Shown: positions 9,581 through 29,622 of the stretch, piece after piece | Position numbering within the stretch: position 1 is the first letter of the stretch | How the letters are laid out: every line of letters begins with the position of its first letter | IMG/VR virus record: IMGVR_UViG_3300028835_000209 | Span: 1-40,380 of that record | DNA from: a virus | Reading direction: 5' to 3' (one strand) | Length of the DNA stretch: 40,380 bases | Program-made: the position numbers and the translations under genes | The notes under the pieces: model-generated | What the model saw: only the letters and a program-made list of their open reading frames with translations | Database searches by the model: none | Told to the model about the DNA's origin: nothing

Positions 9581-9738
9581 TTATATTTTAGACTCGTTAA
9601 GCCATCTATCAGGAGTCTTACTAGTCTTTGCTTTGTTAACGATACTTGGACGTAAATTAATTTGTAATATGCTTGATAACGGTACTGGCCAGTAGCTTAA
9701 TTATATTATTAGAGAATGTTGAAGCACTCTCTTTTCAA
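9581..9738 (-). other. Spacer with gene remnant and small palindromes
   Basis: No complete gene is visible. A 39-codon open stretch ending at 9581 (C-terminus PDRWLNESKI) has no start codon and may be the tail of a decayed gene. It contains TACTGGCCAGTA, a perfect 12-bp palindrome (9683-9694). A second imperfect hairpin, AGAGAATG/CACTCTCT (9711-9732), sits just downstream of the tRNA-Trp and could be its 3' trailer. Confidence 0.4.
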
Positions 9739-9809
9739 CAGGAGTAGTAGGACTTGAACCCACATTAGTGGCTTTGGAGACCACTGCTCTGCCATTGAAC
9801 TATACTCCT
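9739..9809 (-). tRNA. tRNA-Trp (CCA anticodon)
   Basis: The minus strand folds as a full cloverleaf of 71 bases. The acceptor AGGAGTA pairs with TACTCCT, the discriminator base is G, the D arm reads TAGTTCAATGGCAGAGCA, the anticodon stem GTGGT/GCCAC holds the loop CTCCAAA (anticodon CCA) and the T arm is GTGGG-TTCAAGT-CCTAC. The terminal CCA is not encoded. A phage tRNA-Trp may support translation of Trp-rich virion proteins or escape host tRNA cleavage; that is inference. Confidence 0.93.
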
Positions 9810-9816
9810 ACACAAC

Positions 9817-9870
9817 CAAGGTAGAACTCACATGTGATCCCAAATCTACGAGGCCGACAGTTCTACCTTG
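9817..9870 (-). other. Hairpin RNA element between the tRNAs
   Basis: Perfect 12-bp arms, CAAGGTAGAACT (9817-9828) and AGTTCTACCTTG (9859-9870), enclose 30 bases that contain the palindrome CACATGTG. There is no T-run, so it is not an ordinary terminator. Sitting between tRNA-Trp and a tRNA-like sequence, it could be a processing signal, a truncated tRNA or a small structured RNA. Confidence 0.5.
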
Positions 9871-9880
9871 ATTTAACTTG

Positions 9881-9950
9881 TCTCTTGAGCCGGATTTGAA
9901 CCGTGCAACAATGGGTGTTCCCCACCGCTCTACCGTTGAGCTACCAAGAG
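9881..9950 (-). tRNA. Aberrant tRNA-like sequence (possible pseudo-tRNA)
   Basis: The ends pair as an acceptor (CTCTTGG with TCAAGAG), the D arm TAGCTCAACGGTAGAGC is canonical and a TTCAAAT T-loop is present. The anticodon arm is abnormal: either GGTGG/CCATT with loop GGAACAC, which lacks U33, or GGTG/CACC with a five-base loop. The T stem has only three good pairs. A Val (AAC) or other anticodon cannot be assigned safely. It may be a decayed tRNA or a tRNA mimic. Confidence 0.5.
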
Positions 9951-10060: not shown

Positions 10061-10594
10061 CTATACTTTTTTGTTTAAATTTGCTAAAGTAACTTTGTAC
10101 CTCTCTTCTCTCGCCACTTTGTTTTTTTCAACTTGTAACCGTATTAACTCATTTTCATATTCTTTCATCAAATCTTCTATTTCTTGATGTATCTCTAAAA
10201 GGGATTTACGCTCACCGTGAATCTCTTTAGTTTTTACTTTAGTACTATCATCGGGTGGGAATGCTCCATCGACCAGTCTATCCACGCCGAAAGGCTTATT
10301 GCAATTATTTCTGTGTAACATAACCATTTTCCTTCTCCTAGAACCAAGGTGTCCTAAAAGTACACAACCTTTCTTAAACTCTCCTGTACCAACTGTTCTA
10401 TTTACGGACTTAACTCTGTCCTTATTTGAAACTTGATAATAATCCTTGTAATAACCATCATCGATTAATACAGGTCTCCATTCCTCTTCTTCTGTGCCAA
10501 TTACCTCTTCATTTAATCTAATATAGCTTTTATTGAGTTTCTTATTAATTTCCCATTCAACTTCTTCTTCGTTTCTATATTGTTTTTTCCTCAT
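10061..10594 (-). CDS. Degenerate NUMOD4/HNH-derived protein with coiled-coil tail
   Basis: The 177-residue protein carries a NUMOD4 segment, WRPVLIDDGYYKDYYQVS, followed by VKSVNRTV (about 39-67), as in the neighbouring HNH gene. The region that should hold the HNH nuclease is altered: VHRLV has become VDRLV (Asp about 105), and the HLNG-D-N block is missing, replaced by a short link and a charged coiled coil (about 125-177). Nuclease activity is therefore unlikely. It may survive as a DNA-binding or regulatory protein. The start has an AGGAGGATTAC ribosome site. Confidence 0.7.
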   Translation of the reverse strand: MRKKQYRNEEEVEWEINKKLNKSYIRLNEEVIGTEEEEWRPVLIDDGYYKDYYQVSNKDRVKSVNRTVGTGEFKKGCVLLGHLGSRRRKMVMLHRNNCNKPFGVDRLVDGAFPPDDSTKVKTKEIHGERKSLLEIHQEIEDLMKEYENELIRLQVEKNKVAREERYKVTLANLNKKV

Positions 10595-10606
10595 GTAATC
10601 CTCCTC

Positions 10607-11092
10607 CTAAATATGCTTCCACGTTTGCCTGCAACTAATCTTGTTTATAGTTGCACATGATACATCAAACTTTATCCCGATTTCTGCATGATTCAATATC
10701 CTTTCCTTTAACATTTCTTTAATTTCCCAAACATCTTCATTTGTTAATTTTGCATTAGGATGTTTTACACCTTTTCTAGAAATCCACTCCAAGTTATCCG
10801 CCCTGTTGTCAGTTTTATCTCCGTTGAGGTGTTTAACAAACGCTGTACTTCCTACCCTGTTATACAAAAAGGCTAAAGCAACTAACCTATGCACCCCCGT
10901 TTGAGCTGTTTTGTTATCTTCTCCTCTTAAAGAAACAACTAAGTAACCGTTGTGTGTCTCGCTAACTTTCGACATTCTACCTTTTTTCCAGTAGCCACTA
11001 TGAGTCGTTCTACCCAAAGACCTAACCCGTCCCAAGTTCGACACCTGATAGTAATCCTCATAATCCAGTACGTCTTCCCAAATCTCTTCCAT
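10607..11092 (-). CDS. HNH homing endonuclease (NUMOD4-HNH)
   Basis: The 161-residue protein has the complete order of phage HNH enzymes: NUMOD4 (EIWEDVLDYEDYYQVSNLG, about 3-21, then RVRSL), the HNH_3 core with VHRLVALAF (His 68) and HLNGDKTDN...NLEW (88-103), and a C-terminal helix-turn-helix-like DNA-binding segment (LTNEDVWEIKEML... to the end). It would nick or cut DNA near its own site and promote its spread. It stands free rather than inside an intron as far as I can see. Its degenerate relative follows immediately. Confidence 0.9.
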   Translation of the reverse strand: MEEIWEDVLDYEDYYQVSNLGRVRSLGRTTHSGYWKKGRMSKVSETHNGYLVVSLRGEDNKTAQTGVHRLVALAFLYNRVGSTAFVKHLNGDKTDNRADNLEWISRKGVKHPNAKLTNEDVWEIKEMLKERILNHAEIGIKFDVSCATINKISCRQTWKHI

Positions 11093-24027: not shown

Positions 24028-24213
24028 TCACCTTCCCTTTTTGTGATAATATTTTTTAATTTTGAAAGTTCTATTTTGACATTGCATTAAATGAATAAAC
24101 TTTTTGCAATTCGGACAATGACCACAATCCCAGAATAGAGGGTCTTCTATTAGTTCATCTCTCATCATTGTCCACTCATAGTTACAGTAATGACATTTAA
24201 ATTTATGATTCAT
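24028..24213 (-). CDS. Zinc-ribbon protein 3
   Basis: 61 residues with two Cys pairs, CHYC (about 7-10) and CGHCPNC (about 31-37), a plausible zinc ribbon, and a very basic C-terminus (FKIKKYYHKKGR). The start lies inside the end of the previous gene, so the three zinc-ribbon genes are coupled. Such immediate-early zinc proteins often bind nucleic acid or host RNA polymerase; that is inference. Confidence 0.7.
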   Translation of the reverse strand: MNHKFKCHYCNYEWTMMRDELIEDPLFWDCGHCPNCKKFIHLMQCQNRTFKIKKYYHKKGR

Positions 24214-24394
24214 CTATCACTTCTCTAACTTCGATGTAGAGCTTTCCTCCAATAGGTACCATTTCTAATTCTTCTTTACATATATCACACTTGTAATACT
24301 GATTAATAAGTAGTTTTTCCATATCATTATAAAATACCCCATTGCATAACGGACATGTGACCTTTGTTACTTTTTCTGTTGTAGTTTTTCTCAT
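24203..24394 (-). CDS. Zinc-ribbon protein 2
   Basis: 63 residues with CPLC (about 14-17) and CDIC (about 36-39) forming a four-Cys zinc site. The first residues MRKTTTEKVTKVTCP match the upstream gene's MRKTTTKIVRVMETTCP, so the two are tandem duplicates. The ribosome site is GGGAGGTAAAATA. Confidence 0.75.
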   Translation of the reverse strand: MRKTTTEKVTKVTCPLCNGVFYNDMEKLLINQYYKCDICKEELEMVPIGGKLYIEVREVIDES

Positions 24395-24615
24395 TATTTT
24401 ACCTCCCTCCCTATTAGTTCAAAGTTTTCACTGTCTGGAATAGGGACTATTATGCTATCTTTTTCACATATAGTGCATGTCGAATAATTCCAGCGGATTA
24501 CTTCTATATCTTCTTTTATTCTACATGCTCGTGTTAGCGAAAAGTAACCGATTTGATTGCAAAATGGACAAGTTGTTTCCATTACCCTTACTATTTTAGT
24601 TGTTGTTTTTCTCAT
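24394..24615 (-). CDS. Zinc-ribbon protein 1, first gene of the early transcript
   Basis: From ATG 24615, after AAGGAGGCAACTT, 73 residues with CPFC (16-19) and CTIC (47-50) and a C-terminal VPIPDSENFELIGREV part shared with the next gene. It is the first gene after the main leftward promoter, so it is made immediately after infection. A longer frame to 24756 runs through the promoter and is rejected. Confidence 0.75.
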   Translation of the reverse strand: MRKTTTKIVRVMETTCPFCNQIGYFSLTRACRIKEDIEVIRWNYSTCTICEKDSIIVPIPDSENFELIGREVK

Positions 24616-24657
24616 AAGTTGCCTCCTTTTATTTGATTTATTTACTAACCTAATATA

Positions 24658-24686
24658 ACTATACTTGTAAAAATGAACTTTGTCAA
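24658..24686 (-). promoter_or_regulatory. Main leftward early promoter
   Basis: Minus strand TTGACA (24681-24686), 17 bases, TATAGT (24658-24663). Its -35 box forms one arm of an inverted repeat with the -35 of the rightward repressor promoter, so the two promoters are back to back. Confidence 0.85.
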
Positions 24687-24703
24687 CTGTTTTTATTGAC
24701 AAA
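24679..24703. promoter_or_regulatory. Inverted repeat / candidate operator between divergent promoters
   Basis: TTTGTCAA (24679-24686) and TTGACAAA (24696-24703) are perfect 8-bp arms 9 bases apart, covering both -35 boxes. A protein bound here would switch both promoters. The symmetry follows partly from having two TTGACA boxes, so the operator role is not proven. Confidence 0.5.
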
Positions 24704-24746: not shown

Positions 24747-25088
24747 ATGACAACAAATGAAAGAATAAAGTACTTACGTGTTGATTTGCTAGATATGAGT
24801 CAACGAGCTTTTGCGATTGACCTGAACATAAGAGATACTACAATCTGTGCTATTGAAAGAGGTCGGAAACAAGTAAATAACAGAGTGATTTCAGATATTT
24901 GTCGAGCATATTTTGTAAATGAGAGTTGGTTAAAAACTGGTGAAGGTGAAATATTTAAAAAAGAACTATCACTTGATGACCTCGCTAAAAAGCAAGGGTT
25001 AACCGAAGTCCACATTAATCTAGTTAAAGACATTATTAAACTAGATCACAAACTATTAGATGCATTTATTGATATGTTTAGTAAATAA
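24747..25088 (+). CDS. XRE-family repressor, the only plus-strand gene
   Basis: ATG 24747 follows AAAGGAGGTAAGCAT; 113 residues. The N-terminal 65 form an XRE helix-turn-helix (NERIKYLRVDLLDMSQRAFA, then IRDTTICAIERGRKQV) followed by FVNESWLKTGEGEIF, the common extension of phage and ICE repressors. The C-terminal 40 residues form a helical dimerisation-type segment. There is no S24 autocleavage domain, so RecA-type induction is not expected. It probably controls the divergent promoters. It ends inside a bidirectional terminator. Confidence 0.88.
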   Translation: MTTNERIKYLRVDLLDMSQRAFAIDLNIRDTTICAIERGRKQVNNRVISDICRAYFVNESWLKTGEGEIFKKELSLDDLAKKQGLTEVHINLVKDIIKLDHKLLDAFIDMFSK

Positions 25089-25241: not shown

Positions 25242-25442
25242 CTAAAACTTGGTGTAGATTACGTATGTTAGTAAAGCTAAAATTGGCACTGGGTTAGTTA
25301 TTAAATAATCTATTATCAAAATTAAAGCTATTAATATTGTTACTAAAAAATAAAAGGTTAGTATCCCAAATACTCCAAACCATTTCCAACGCTCTATTAT
25401 CCAATCTGTTATTTTCCCGCACGATTCTTCGGCATTTTTCAT
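25242..25442 (-). CDS. Small membrane protein next to the endolysin (possible second holin)
   Basis: 66 residues with a polar, Trp-containing start (KNAEESCGKITDWIIERW) and two membrane helices (about 21-45 and 50-64). It follows the endolysin by a few bases with an AGGAGGAGATTG-type ribosome site. Size, topology and context fit a holin, but a phi LC3-like holin exists at 29362, so a second holin or antiholin is the reading. Confidence 0.6.
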   Translation of the reverse strand: MKNAEESCGKITDWIIERWKWFGVFGILTFYFLVTILIALILIIDYLITNPVPILALLTYVIYTKF

Positions 25443-25453
25443 TCAATCTCCTC

Positions 25454-26197
25454 CTAAAGTTGATTAGCTATTTTAATAAATAAGGGTTCTAAAAATCTAA
25501 CGTATTGACATGCTTTTCTCCAGTATTCGTAATCAAATGCTATACCCTTATCTTCAAATTTTTCAAATGCTTCTGCCAAAGTGGTTACGTTGTTGGTTGT
25601 ATCCCAGTTACCGAACCGATTCAGTTGATTAGCTATTGTTATAAATAAATCTTCTAGATAGTTAACATATTTACAAGCTGATTTCCAGTACTCGTAATCA
25701 AACTTTACAGCCCACTGGTTAAACTCTGTAAATGCATCATTCAACGTATCTATCTCTTCTCTCTCTTCCCAACTCATTCTCATTTTTTTATCTAATGTTA
25801 CCCCCGTTTGCAAGTAGGATAGACTTCTGCCACCTGTAAATTGAAAGTGTGGTTTGTCAGGAAAGTGTGACCAGCTTCCTCCCCATTCTCCCCCCATCTC
25901 TTCCCAAATCTCACCTGCTAAACCTAGAAATCTTACTGGGTATAATTGACTACTTACGTTGTTAAAAATATCAAATGCTAACCTATAATTATGGATACTT
26001 TCTCCGCCTTTAGCGTTCGTAACGATTTGCCCTGGTAGGTCTCTTCCTAGAGAGTACAAGTAATTTTGGTACGTGTTGTCTCTGTAGGTGGAGCTTACCC
26101 CCATAGTCCACATTTTTTCTTTTAGCCTTCTTCTTAGTTCCTCCACCCCCCTTTGTAAACAAGGGTGTAACTCTTCTATTTCTCTACTGTCAATCAT
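25454..26197 (-). CDS. Endolysin: M15-type peptidase with C-terminal repeats
   Basis: 247 residues. The N-terminal domain (about 1-130) is a VanY/Ply500-like M15 peptidase that should cut cell-wall peptides: the zinc signature is SIHNYRLAFD (His 69, Asp 76) with PHFQFTGG (His 117). The C-terminus has two copies of a 28-residue unit, FDYEYWKSACKYVNYLEDLF and FDYEYWRKACQYVRFLEPLF, each ending IANQL (about 165-192 and 220-247). Similar SPDYW-type repeats end some clostridial lysins and probably bind the wall. The start overlaps the previous stop (ATGA). No signal peptide, so a holin is needed. Confidence 0.87.
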   Translation of the reverse strand: MIDSREIEELHPCLQRGVEELRRRLKEKMWTMGVSSTYRDNTYQNYLYSLGRDLPGQIVTNAKGGESIHNYRLAFDIFNNVSSQLYPVRFLGLAGEIWEEMGGEWGGSWSHFPDKPHFQFTGGRSLSYLQTGVTLDKKMRMSWEEREEIDTLNDAFTEFNQWAVKFDYEYWKSACKYVNYLEDLFITIANQLNRFGNWDTTNNVTTLAEAFEKFEDKGIAFDYEYWRKACQYVRFLEPLFIKIANQL

Positions 26198-26511
26198 GAT
26201 TTAGTCTCCCTCTTCTGGATAATTATATTATTCATGTAGTTGTAAACGTTATATTCCCCCAGTAACTCTACTCTTACGCCAAGTCTGTCTTTAAAGTAAA
26301 GTGGTTCTATTGCGTTAAAACTTCCCAAACTGTGGTAATCATCAACAATTTTTTTTAGATATTCTTCTTGGTCGCTAAAGTCATTAAAGTCTAAAAATAA
26401 TATACTGACATCCTCTAAAACTTTTTCATCTTTCGTCGTATACTTCAATACTACGTGGTCATTAGATAACGTAACAGTGCAACTAAAAGTACTTATGCGA
26501 TAAACTTTCAT
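26194..26511 (-). CDS. Uncharacterised accessory protein
   Basis: ATG 26511 follows AAGGAGATTGAAAATT; 105 residues. Beta-rich first half (ISTFSCTVTLSNDHVVLKYT) and a mixed second half. No family recognised. It is coupled to the endolysin, which may be chance. Confidence 0.6.
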   Translation of the reverse strand: MKVYRISTFSCTVTLSNDHVVLKYTTKDEKVLEDVSILFLDFNDFSDQEEYLKKIVDDYHSLGSFNAIEPLYFKDRLGVRVELLGEYNVYNYMNNIIIQKRETKS

Positions 26512-26529
26512 AATTTTCAATCTCCTTTT

Positions 26530-26868
26530 TTATAATGTTTCACGTATACATCTTTCAATAATCTTACTACTAAAACTGTCCATCAAAGTTTCGTCTGTTC
26601 TTGGGTTAGCTTCCTTTGAACGTTCAAGTGTCCGTGCTAATGACAATTCTCTATATTTAAGAGTGCTTTCTAGTATTTTCACCTGTCTCAAAGTTTCGTC
26701 GTAGTCTGCCTTTGCCTCAAAACCATCTTCGTACGTTACGCCTTCATGCTCTTTTAGATAAATTTGAGCTAATACTAAATTACTCTTAAGCTCCTCAATC
26801 TTCTTTTCTAAACCTTTTATTGCAGTGGCGAAACTTATTTGACAGTTCTTGTAACTACTTTCGTTCAT
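26530..26868 (-). CDS. Coiled-coil accessory protein
   Basis: 112 residues, mostly helical with heptad spacing (ATAIKGLEKKIEELKSNLVL, about 14-33). The ribosome site is GGGAGATGAACCG. No known function. Confidence 0.6.
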   Translation of the reverse strand: MNESSYKNCQISFATAIKGLEKKIEELKSNLVLAQIYLKEHEGVTYEDGFEAKADYDETLRQVKILESTLKYRELSLARTLERSKEANPRTDETLMDSFSSKIIERCIRETL

Positions 26869-26895
26869 CGGTTCATCTCCCTTTTCTATTTGATG

Positions 26896-27111
26896 TTATA
26901 AAATGCCTTCTAATAAATCAATCATTATGTCGTTTTGATAAATACCTTCCGATGTTGACATCTCTACCAAAGCTTCATGTATCTTCATATGATGAAGATT
27001 CCCTTTGTCCAATTTAATTTTTTTAACAATATACTTTCCGCTATCTCTAGTAGTCTTTTTTTCTTGTCTCAACGTGTCCTTTTCACGAACACTTTTTACA
27101 GTTCTTCTCAT
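26896..27111 (-). CDS. Small basic accessory protein, possibly DNA-binding
   Basis: 71 residues. The basic N-terminus (MRRTVKSVREKDTLRQEKKT) leads to a KYIVKKIKLDKGNLHHMKIHEALVEMS helix pattern that looks like a ribbon-helix-helix or small regulator. AAAGGAGGTGATTTC precedes the ATG. The function is not certain. Confidence 0.55.
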   Translation of the reverse strand: MRRTVKSVREKDTLRQEKKTTRDSGKYIVKKIKLDKGNLHHMKIHEALVEMSTSEGIYQNDIMIDLLEGIL

Positions 27112-27160
27112 GAAATCACCTCCTTTTCTTCTGCTACTGCTACTGCTTCTGCTTCTGCTT
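27112..27160 (-). repeat. GCA/GAA triplet tract between two genes
   Basis: The spacer contains about ten CTG/CTA/CTT-type triplets (27131-27160) between a stop codon and the next ribosome site. A 20-base piece, CTGCTACTGCTACTGCTTCT, is identical to 14356-14375 in the membrane-stalk gene. Such tracts change length by slippage. Confidence 0.6.
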
Positions 27161-27697
27161 CTATTCTATCCGCTTCCTCTTCTTCTTCATATACTCTAGC
27201 TTTTGTTCGGCAGCTTCGATTATGTCGTCCATGTTGTCAGCTATAGCACTTAAAACTAACGTACGGGCATCTATCAGCTCACTCGCTTTTAACTCCGCTA
27301 TAGTCTTTGTCAATATTAAATCCTTAGTATCAATGTAGGTAGCATTATAACCCTCATAATCGTTTTCTCCTTTCATCCAATCCTTAAGCTGGTATTCTCT
27401 CACAGCGGAATCCCATTCAAATTCGATGTCTAAATCTTTCATAGCCTGTATCCACTGTCCTTCTAAAATGTTATCAACTTCTTCAAGGTGTTCAACGATT
27501 TCTTGTTCTAAATCTTCCAGATACTCTAGTTCGCTAGGTTTAATCCAACCAGCAACTTTATTTGTTTTAACGGAGGGGTAGTCGTCTATACAAACTCTGT
27601 TACCAAATTCCGCTGTAAGTTGTCTACTTTGATACCATTTAAAGCCCGATATATTTACCTCTACTTTACTTGTGATAGTACCTTTATATTCGCTCAT
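27161..27697 (-). CDS. Uncharacterised accessory protein
   Basis: 178 residues: a beta-rich first 80, then acidic helices with LEYLEDLEQEIVEHLEEVDN (about 57-76) and a C-terminal coiled coil ending in KKKRKRIE. No family recognised. The ribosome site is AAAAGGAGACTACAAA. It overlaps the previous gene by four bases. Confidence 0.6.
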   Translation of the reverse strand: MSEYKGTITSKVEVNISGFKWYQSRQLTAEFGNRVCIDDYPSVKTNKVAGWIKPSELEYLEDLEQEIVEHLEEVDNILEGQWIQAMKDLDIEFEWDSAVREYQLKDWMKGENDYEGYNATYIDTKDLILTKTIAELKASELIDARTLVLSAIADNMDDIIEAAEQKLEYMKKKRKRIE

Positions 27698-27885
27698 TTT
27701 GTAGTCTCCTTTTTTATTGTTTTCTTCTCTTTTTGTTGAATATAATAGTCCCTACTATCAACAAGATTATTATATTCATTTACATATTCTTCAAGTTGAT
27801 ATATCTCATAGTTAATTTTTTCTATTTCAGCGTCATAATCAAAGTCTTCTGATTCCTCGTAATCAAATTCTTCTTTACTAGTCAT
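27694..27885 (-). CDS. Small acidic accessory protein
   Basis: 63 residues, highly acidic start (TSKEEFDYEESEDFDYDAE), then a helical Tyr-rich part and a Lys-rich end. The acidic half resembles DNA-mimic proteins in composition only. GAGGAGAAAACAAA precedes it, the same leader as the gene at 28186. Confidence 0.6.
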   Translation of the reverse strand: MTSKEEFDYEESEDFDYDAEIEKINYEIYQLEEYVNEYNNLVDSRDYYIQQKEKKTIKKETTK

Positions 27886-27909
27886 TTTGTTTTCTCCTCT
27901 TTTAATATT

Positions 27910-28182
27910 TTAGTCGCAATCTACAAAATCTTCAAAGTATGTGTATTCTTCAAAAAGGTCGTATGCATCTAAATCGTTTTTTTCTTTTTCAGTTAGTGAA
28001 TTGTACTTATCTAAATTTAAAAAATTACATATTTCTTTACGCCCTTTTATATCTTCAACCAATTCTTCAACTGTATCTGCTCTAAAAGAGTGATTATCAG
28101 TACCAGTAGTAGCAACAACTATATACTCCCAATTTCCCCACTGCTTTGATTTCTTTTTCCATAATTTTTCTATACCATTCAT
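27910..28182 (-). CDS. Small acidic accessory protein
   Basis: 90 residues with a basic start (MNGIEKLWKKKSKQWGNWEY) and a very acidic end (DAYDLFEEYTYFEDFVDCD). No family recognised. Charge and size fit the small inhibitors that phages make early, but this is inference. GAGGAGATTTAAATT precedes the ATG. Confidence 0.6.
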   Translation of the reverse strand: MNGIEKLWKKKSKQWGNWEYIVVATTGTDNHSFRADTVEELVEDIKGRKEICNFLNLDKYNSLTEKEKNDLDAYDLFEEYTYFEDFVDCD

Positions 28183-28185
28183 AAT

Positions 28186-28377
28186 TTAAATCTCCTCTTT
28201 TAATATTGACTTTTTCCATCCCATTTTATTATTCTTCTTCACTTTAATGTTGTAAAGTTTTTTTGCTTCTTCAAGTCGTTCCTTTAATACTTCCATGTTT
28301 TCTGTGTTTTCTCTTTTTACATTTAGTTTCTCTATTTTTGCCTCTGTCGCTCTTATTACTGCTCCGTAGTATCCCAT
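28186..28377 (-). CDS. Small basic coiled-coil accessory protein
   Basis: 63 residues, mostly one charged helix (EAKIEKLNVKRENTENMEVL). AGAGGAGAAAACAAA leads to the ATG. No function recognised. Confidence 0.6.
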   Translation of the reverse strand: MGYYGAVIRATEAKIEKLNVKRENTENMEVLKERLEEAKKLYNIKVKKNNKMGWKKSILKEEI

Positions 28378-28394: not shown

Positions 28395-28772
28395 TTATTT
28401 AGCGTTCGCAAGCAGTTCAAAATATTCTACTACCTTCTTTGACTTCTCCGCCTTTGCTGAAAGTTGTCTATATGTCTCTAATAACTTTTCGTCTCCTGCA
28501 TTTCTTCCTTTAAACTTGTTATTTCTCTTTACTACTGCTTTAACTAGTTCGTGTTGTTGTTGTTGTTCTTGTTCTATTGCTCTTGCATCAATAAGATTAT
28601 ATTTTTGTGTATTTGCATTGTTTAACTTTTCAACAAGTGCTTTTATTTCATCAGTGCAGTCTATTCTATATTCTTTAGTTGCATCTTGAAGTCTAAGAAT
28701 TTCATCTTGGAATTCGTGTATTACGTCAGTAAGTCTGTTTATTTGATAATCTTGTATTTGGCTAATTCTCAT
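28395..28772 (-). CDS. Coiled-coil accessory protein, first gene of the palindrome-controlled unit
   Basis: 125 residues forming long charged helices with a Gln-rich turn (EQEQQQQHELV, about 71-81). The ATG follows AAAGGGAGAAACTAAA and comes about 40 bases after the -10 box, so it is the first product of the unit. No family recognised. Confidence 0.65.
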   Translation of the reverse strand: MRISQIQDYQINRLTDVIHEFQDEILRLQDATKEYRIDCTDEIKALVEKLNNANTQKYNLIDARAIEQEQQQQHELVKAVVKRNNKFKGRNAGDEKLLETYRQLSAKAEKSKKVVEYFELLANAK

Positions 28773-28818
28773 TTTAGTTTCTCCCTTTTTAATATTGGCT
28801 GTTTTCTTAACTAACTAT

Positions 28819-28847
28819 ATTGTAACGTACTCACGTGAGTACGTCAA
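28819..28847 (-). promoter_or_regulatory. Promoter with a perfect 20-bp palindromic operator
   Basis: Minus strand TTGACG (28842-28847), 17 bases, TACAAT (28819-28824). The whole spacer and half of the -35 box are covered by ACGTACTCACGTGAGTACGT (28825-28844), a perfect palindrome. A dimer bound here would block RNA polymerase. The -35 box shares AGTGTTGAC with the promoter at 21960-21988. Confidence 0.88.
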
Positions 28848-28854
28848 CACTTTT

Positions 28855-29208
28855 CTAAAGTTTTTTTATTTTTAATAACTCTACACACTTTTCAGCAGTA
28901 TGTGTAAATGTAAAAGTCTCTAGCAAAACGTCGTTGTAGAGGACATTAGCACCAAACAACGTTCCTTTATAGAACACTTTTTTAACACTTAAGTAGCTAA
29001 GATTAGTAATGATTACTACTACATTCTCATTTTCACAACACATCTTGTTATCAATAATCTTATCTACAAACTCTAACATCACGCTTACATCTTCTATTAT
29101 CTCTACATAGTTATCATAGTTAACATCTTCAATAATAGTAGTTCCGTACTCTAAACTATAAATATTGTTGCTTATTTCATACACACTTTTAACTGATAAT
29201 TCTTTCAT
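28855..29208 (-). CDS. Uncharacterised protein between late terminator and accessory unit
   Basis: ATG 29208 follows GAGGAGTGTTTTTT; 117 residues (a GTG at 29217 lies in the ribosome site). Alternating beta strands with a CCENENVVVIITN segment (about 54-66). No family recognised. It has its own promoter and stands alone, which marks it as a moron-like gene. Confidence 0.65.
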   Translation of the reverse strand: MKELSVKSVYEISNNIYSLEYGTTIIEDVNYDNYVEIIEDVSVMLEFVDKIIDNKMCCENENVVVIITNLSYLSVKKVFYKGTLFGANVLYNDVLLETFTFTHTAEKCVELLKIKKL

Positions 29209-29236
29209 AAAAAACACTCCTCTAATTTTAGAAATT

Positions 29237-29361: not shown

Positions 29362-29622
29362 CTATCTAATAGAATTTTCTTTAATTGCTGATTCTTCCTT
29401 ATCCCTAAACCCTTTCGAGGTTGGGTCTATTACGTAGCCTACAAGTGCAACTATGCACATGCCTATCGAAAGTGGGTTGTTTATAAAGTTTACTAACTCT
29501 AGATACAATAAGTCCCAACTCGTCAAGGTTTGAACATCTATGCCTAAAACACCTATAGGTAAGGCTATCAACCCCATTATGAAGTAGGGGTTTTTAAATC
29601 GTGTTTTCCAATCTAAATGCAT
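29362..29622 (-). CDS. Holin, phi LC3-like family
   Basis: 86 residues. The layout fits the phi LC3 holins: a start like W-K-x-R-x-K-N (DWKTRFKNPYF), two membrane helices (about 13-30 and 50-66), and between helix 2 and the tail the hallmark VDPTTKG-type motif (here IDPTSKGFRD, about 66-75) with a charged C-terminus. It makes the membrane lesions that release the endolysin. AAGGAGTGATAAC precedes the ATG. It ends the late operon. Confidence 0.88.
   Translation of the reverse strand: MHLDWKTRFKNPYFIMGLIALPIGVLGIDVQTLTSWDLLYLELVNFINNPLSIGMCIVALVGYVIDPTSKGFRDKEESAIKENSIR

Follow-up and report, generated by a model that had tools for sequence, protein, structure and literature searches.

A perfect 20-bp palindrome, ACGTACTCACGTGAGTACGT (28825..28844), covers the whole spacer and the ACG of the -35 box of a predicted sigma-A type promoter in a virus record of 40,380 bases (33-40% G+C), which was analysed over its full length and is referred to here as the window. 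The presence of this palindrome in the promoter is a real and significant observation. We consider it reasonably probable (about 0.6) that it is the operator of a homodimeric repressor in a self-limiting, acr-aca-like circuit, with the repressor perhaps coming from the controlled unit itself. Arrangements of this kind are already known and are ordinary for phages. The palindrome would mark the switch of a ten-gene block adjoining the lysis module, in which eight of the ten genes have no known family; at such positions, a promoter that incorporates a repressor site is often that of counter-defence genes, and the candidate operator could help to identify the regulator and to find out what the accessory-unit genes do.

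The palindrome and its promoter

The minus strand reads GTGTTGACGTACTCACGTGAGTACGTTACAATATAG at the promoter (28819..28847), with the -35 box TTGACG at 28847-28842 and the -10 box TACAAT at 28824-28819, separated by a 17-bp spacer. Assignment of the promoter and of its -10 box is by consensus match, 10 of the 12 positions of the two boxes agreeing with the sigma-A consensus, and transcription is predicted to start near 28812. Directly upstream of the -35 box, on the same strand, an A/T-rich stretch (AATAAAAAAACTTTAGAAAAGTG, 28848..28870) resembles an UP element by eye.

The predicted promoter would drive, leftward, a unit of small accessory genes. The first of these (28395..28772, minus strand) follows a leader of about 40 nt with the Shine-Dalgarno sequence GGGAG, and encodes a coiled-coil-like protein of 125 aa that matches no family above the cut-off. 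Seven more small genes on the minus strand (26194..28377), none with a known family, encode products of 63, 90, 63, 178, 71, 112 and 108 aa. With the method used, no relatives of the proteins encoded at 28395-28772 and 27161-27697 were found in IMG/VR. Downstream of the unit, and in the same direction on the minus strand, are genes for an M15-type endolysin (25454-26197) and a small membrane protein (25242-25442). On the other side, a gene of 120 aa with no known function (28855..29217, minus strand) ends 8 bp before the promoter; beyond it lies the gene for a phiLC3-type holin (29362-29622). The holin and the second small membrane protein thus flank the accessory unit on opposite sides, with the endolysin on the far side. 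The main genes of the window are all leftward, the single exception being an XRE (HTH_3) repressor gene. Elsewhere, two tRNA genes (Trp-CCA and Val-AAC, 9738-9950) lie between the terminase small subunit region and NUMOD4/HNH-type genes (10061-11092).

The halves of the palindrome are 10 bp each (GTACTCAC / GTGAGTAC), and its inner 6 bp, CACGTG, are perfectly symmetric. No other gapless palindrome in the window exceeds 12 bp. From base composition, palindromes of 20 bp or longer are expected 0.05 times anywhere in the window by analytic calculation, and of 200 Markov simulations, 6 produced one. In 300 simulated genomes, with about 122 promoter-like sites each, no such site held a palindrome exceeding 18 bp. 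A first-pass annotation of this DNA had given the sequence and position of palindrome and promoter, had described the former as covering the full 17-bp spacer and half of the -35 box, and had judged its chance occurrence there to be very improbable; the sequences and coordinates proved exact, and the other two statements are borne out by the register and the simulations above. That annotation had also proposed searching the genome and the host for further copies. The site is unique in the window, where no second copy was found within 3 mismatches. A search of open-paper text for ACTCACGTGAGT produced no match.

Proposed circuit and candidate regulators

The further claim, that the palindrome serves as the binding site of a specific dimeric regulator, is well supported by its perfect symmetry, its exact promoter register and the occurrence of the same design, with other centres, in low-GC phages and yefM promoters (see below). 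From the sequence, we infer that a repressor probably binds the palindrome and represses there, and that it is encoded by a phage and is not a host global regulator. As a homodimer with one subunit per 10-bp half, it would occupy the spacer together with half of the -35 box, so that RNA polymerase would be excluded from the strong accessory-unit promoter by steric block. An incoming naked genome would fire this promoter at once, the accessory unit would then make its small proteins together with the repressor, and the repressor would afterwards shut the promoter, making the circuit self-limiting.

This scheme is modelled on anti-CRISPR loci. In every tested Aca family, an inverted repeat lies inside a strong consensus core promoter, which is repressed by Aca (PMC9410906), and in the case of AcrIIA15 one repeat is placed between -35 and -10 (PMC10901769). 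Like the acr-aca promoters (Aca1-10, AcrIIA1, AcrIIA15), the promoter described here is a strong consensus promoter that precedes small accessory genes, contains an inverted repeat within its -35/-10 core, and is proposed to be self-limiting. It differs from them in that no known anti-CRISPR was identified, and in that none of the unit proteins belongs to an HTH family, as an Aca repressor from the same operon would; a divergent DNA-binding protein is possible. This lack of a recognised HTH protein counts against self-limitation, as do the co-directional lysis genes further downstream, which an immediate-early promoter would not be expected to drive, unless these genes have promoters of their own. 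A single repressor site fits, as expected, a local autoregulator and not a global lysogeny repressor, and the single local site, the block of small genes and the position beside the lysis genes would fit a self-limiting accessory unit. Promoters of the MerR type hold a dyad in a spacer of 19-20 bp, unlike the 17-bp spacer found here.

The repressor may come from the accessory unit, and its best candidate would be the basic 71-aa protein (26896..27111, minus strand). Among the small basic proteins of the unit, this candidate DNA-binding protein alone shows a plausible strand-helix-helix order, as judged by eye, and no other plausible candidate regulator is encoded in the operon. We found no homologues of the 71-aa protein in phages, plasmids, Pfam, NCBIfam or PDB, and its AlphaFold2 single-sequence model, with a pLDDT of 52, was not usable.

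Alternative regulators

The XRE protein, product of the only rightward gene (24747..25088, plus strand), is the only recognised HTH regulator of the window and might bind the palindrome as well as its own promoters. However, its divergent promoters bear a different inverted repeat, TTTGTCAA-N9-TTGACAAA (24679..24703), which spans their back-to-back -35 boxes and is unrelated to the palindrome, and nothing like the palindrome was found there, making XRE control of the accessory promoter unlikely. The first-pass annotation had correctly noted this absence; its suggestion that the regulator may not be XRE gains indirect support from the different repeat, itself a candidate XRE operator. Just left of the XRE gene (24028-24616), three adjacent small proteins contain CxxC pairs, are zinc-ribbon-like, and in two cases start with MRKTTT. 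A host transcription factor, for example of the LacI or TetR family, could instead couple the unit to host physiology, and host regulators do get borrowed by phages; palindromes centred on CG are, moreover, typical of LacI-type operators. Nevertheless, the exact 14-bp core was present in only one of 398 Bacillota genomes, in a terminator-like copy, and no regulon of this core was found among them. The related promoter pattern had five matches in these genomes, one exact and none promoter-like. Most exact 18-mer matches in 84,980 species genomes proved to be terminators or isolated copies, and a plasmid search gave no match. The Bacillota results answer the proposed host search for that group in general, and make the suggested host factor doubtful and host global control of the palindrome disfavoured. 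In two Bacillaceae genomes (L004, 5986-6003; L008, 5145-5162), the same 18-bp palindrome is followed by a T-run and looks like an intrinsic terminator, apparently a chance match. For the palindrome itself, a role as an RNA hairpin that ends or processes transcripts of the upstream gene (28855-29217) is hardly credible: the transcript does fold into a 9-bp stem (z = -2.4) about 8 bp past the stop codon, but the stem is followed by the -10 box and not by a U-run, the site is not listed by a terminator scan, and a hairpin would leave the perfect promoter register unexplained. The lack of a U-run led us to reject a terminator or RNA hairpin.

The palindrome might also be a YefM/Phd antitoxin box, placing the unit under a host or plasmid YefM-YoeB complex. 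YefM boxes have GTAC centres 12 bp apart (PMC7730913), and the palindrome, overlapping the promoter, shows the same spacing of GTAC centres as paired YefM hexamers. The likeness extends to the operator-promoters of yefM-yoeB and axe-txe, which share GTAC-N8-GTAC with 12 bp from centre to centre and which, in staphylococcal examples, overlap TTGACG; GTAC-N8-GTAC also precedes several further yefM-like genes of Bacilli. Immediately ahead of yefM, staphylococcal yefM-yoeB promoters have the sequence TTGACGTACTCAAGTGCGTACGCTATAAT or a variant of it, and two of them, together with the L018 promoter, conform to TTGACGTACT(C/T)AAGTGCGTACGCTA(T/C)AAT. The promoters in L018 and L084 are identical to that of the window at 25 of 29 positions. 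Against this, the hexamers of YefM are usually TGTACA or CGTACG, with a non-palindromic centre between them, whereas CACGTG is here perfectly symmetric. Furthermore, tblastn detected no YefM-like gene in the window, the phage has no antitoxin or second toxin-antitoxin feature, and the exact 18-mer was found at no yefM promoter among the 84,980 species genomes. Control by a YefM-YoeB complex is thus improbable, on a par with control by XRE. The L018 sequence (OR845003.1, 33960-43988) is named 'Staphylococcus phage SA 1306 Kay', although it looks like a staphylococcal chromosome contig and seems mislabelled; it contains glutamate synthase-like and transporter genes as well as yefM-yoeB, and part of it is shared by OR849888.

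Matches in phiC31-like and low-GC phages

The 14-bp core of the palindrome, TACTCACGTGAGTA, is repeated in the genomes of phiC31 (15 copies), BT1 (16), Lilbooboo (14), Shawty (14) and Vash (15), and the copy upstream of the phiC31 repressor gene c is annotated in X12865 as inverted repeat B/B'. We take these repeated sites to be repressor sites. Blast comparisons against named phages returned phiC31, TG1, Shawty, Vash, Euratis and Lilbooboo, with E-values of at least 2. The 16-bp core had two matches in viral contigs, L002 and L003. L003, a contig of 63% G+C that is phiC31-like by gene content, shares with the window promoter 28 consecutive identical bases, GTGTTGACGTACTCACGTGAGTACGTTA, in the same -35/-10 register, which is also that of the sites in L011 and L012. 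The matches in L002 and L015 lie inside coding genes and were rejected as sites.

These matches raise the prospect of a phiC31 c-type operator, to which a protein related to the Streptomyces phage repressor would bind, encoded by this phage or by a co-resident prophage. However, phiC31-like phages contain many sites, about 15, as opposed to one in this low-GC phage. The window contains no member of the c-repressor family PF25746 and gave no match to a profile made from nine c proteins, and none of the 398 Bacillota genomes reached the family cut-off. The look-elsewhere effect is also large: terminators often contain palindromes, identical ones occur there by chance, as in L004 and L008, and a core match by itself does not argue strongly for kinship. 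We therefore regard an operator of this type as unlikely. Since the c family was found neither in the window nor in Bacillota, the identity of the core would reflect either convergence or an unrecognised relation. Under the latter, phiC31-like Streptomyces phages and this low-GC phage would use a near-identical 28-bp promoter-operator module, by way of a highly diverged c relative or a transferred module, which we deem very unlikely. If this were true, accessory genes in one of the two kinds of phage could be shut off by a prophage of the other kind.

To return to a local, phage-encoded repressor as the preferred reading, similar promoters with other palindromes occur in further phages. A relaxed search of viral sequences with TTGACGTAC-N8-GTACG-N-TA-NNN-T yielded 12 stretches, of which a handful would arise by chance alone and several lie in coding sequence; those in L108, L110, L111 and L114 were in coding or non-promoter places and were discarded. 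No core was found within 2 mismatches in 22 terminase-related viral records. The design TTGACGTAC-N8-GTACG is nevertheless shared, with other centres, by two low-GC phage contigs and the two staphylococcal yefM-yoeB promoters. It takes the form TTGACGTAC-N8-GTACG-N-TATAAT or close variants, and the phage centres (L107/L109 and L112) are symmetric or nearly so but different. Its occurrence in phages and yefM promoters, and in no promoter of the 398 Bacillota genomes, suggests that the layout recurs on mobile elements, apparently with different regulators, and does not define a host regulon. A layout common to several phages, together with a core that matches the repeats of the phiC31 family exactly, makes the identity of the regulator directly testable.

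One of these promoters, TTGACGTACTTCTAAAAGTACGTTATTAT in L112, belongs to a unit that includes a MazE/AbrB-like protein. The other contig, IMGVR_UViG_3300027653_000036, has two such promoters, TTGACGTACTTTAAAAAGTACGATATAAT and TTGACGTACTTTTAAAAGTACGATATAAT (L107, 2079-2107; L109, 969-997), each before a small gene and with an 18-bp palindromic or near-palindromic spacer, CGTACTTT(A/T)AAAAGTACG. Between them lies an HTH-like gene (L109:490-951) identified by a weak match below family cut-offs; the best PDB matches of its product include Aca11 (E 0.24) and the AcrIIA15 DNA-binding domain (E 0.36), values that prove nothing. This low-GC temperate phage contig also has an integrase-like gene, with lysis genes nearby, and may contain an acr-aca-like locus.
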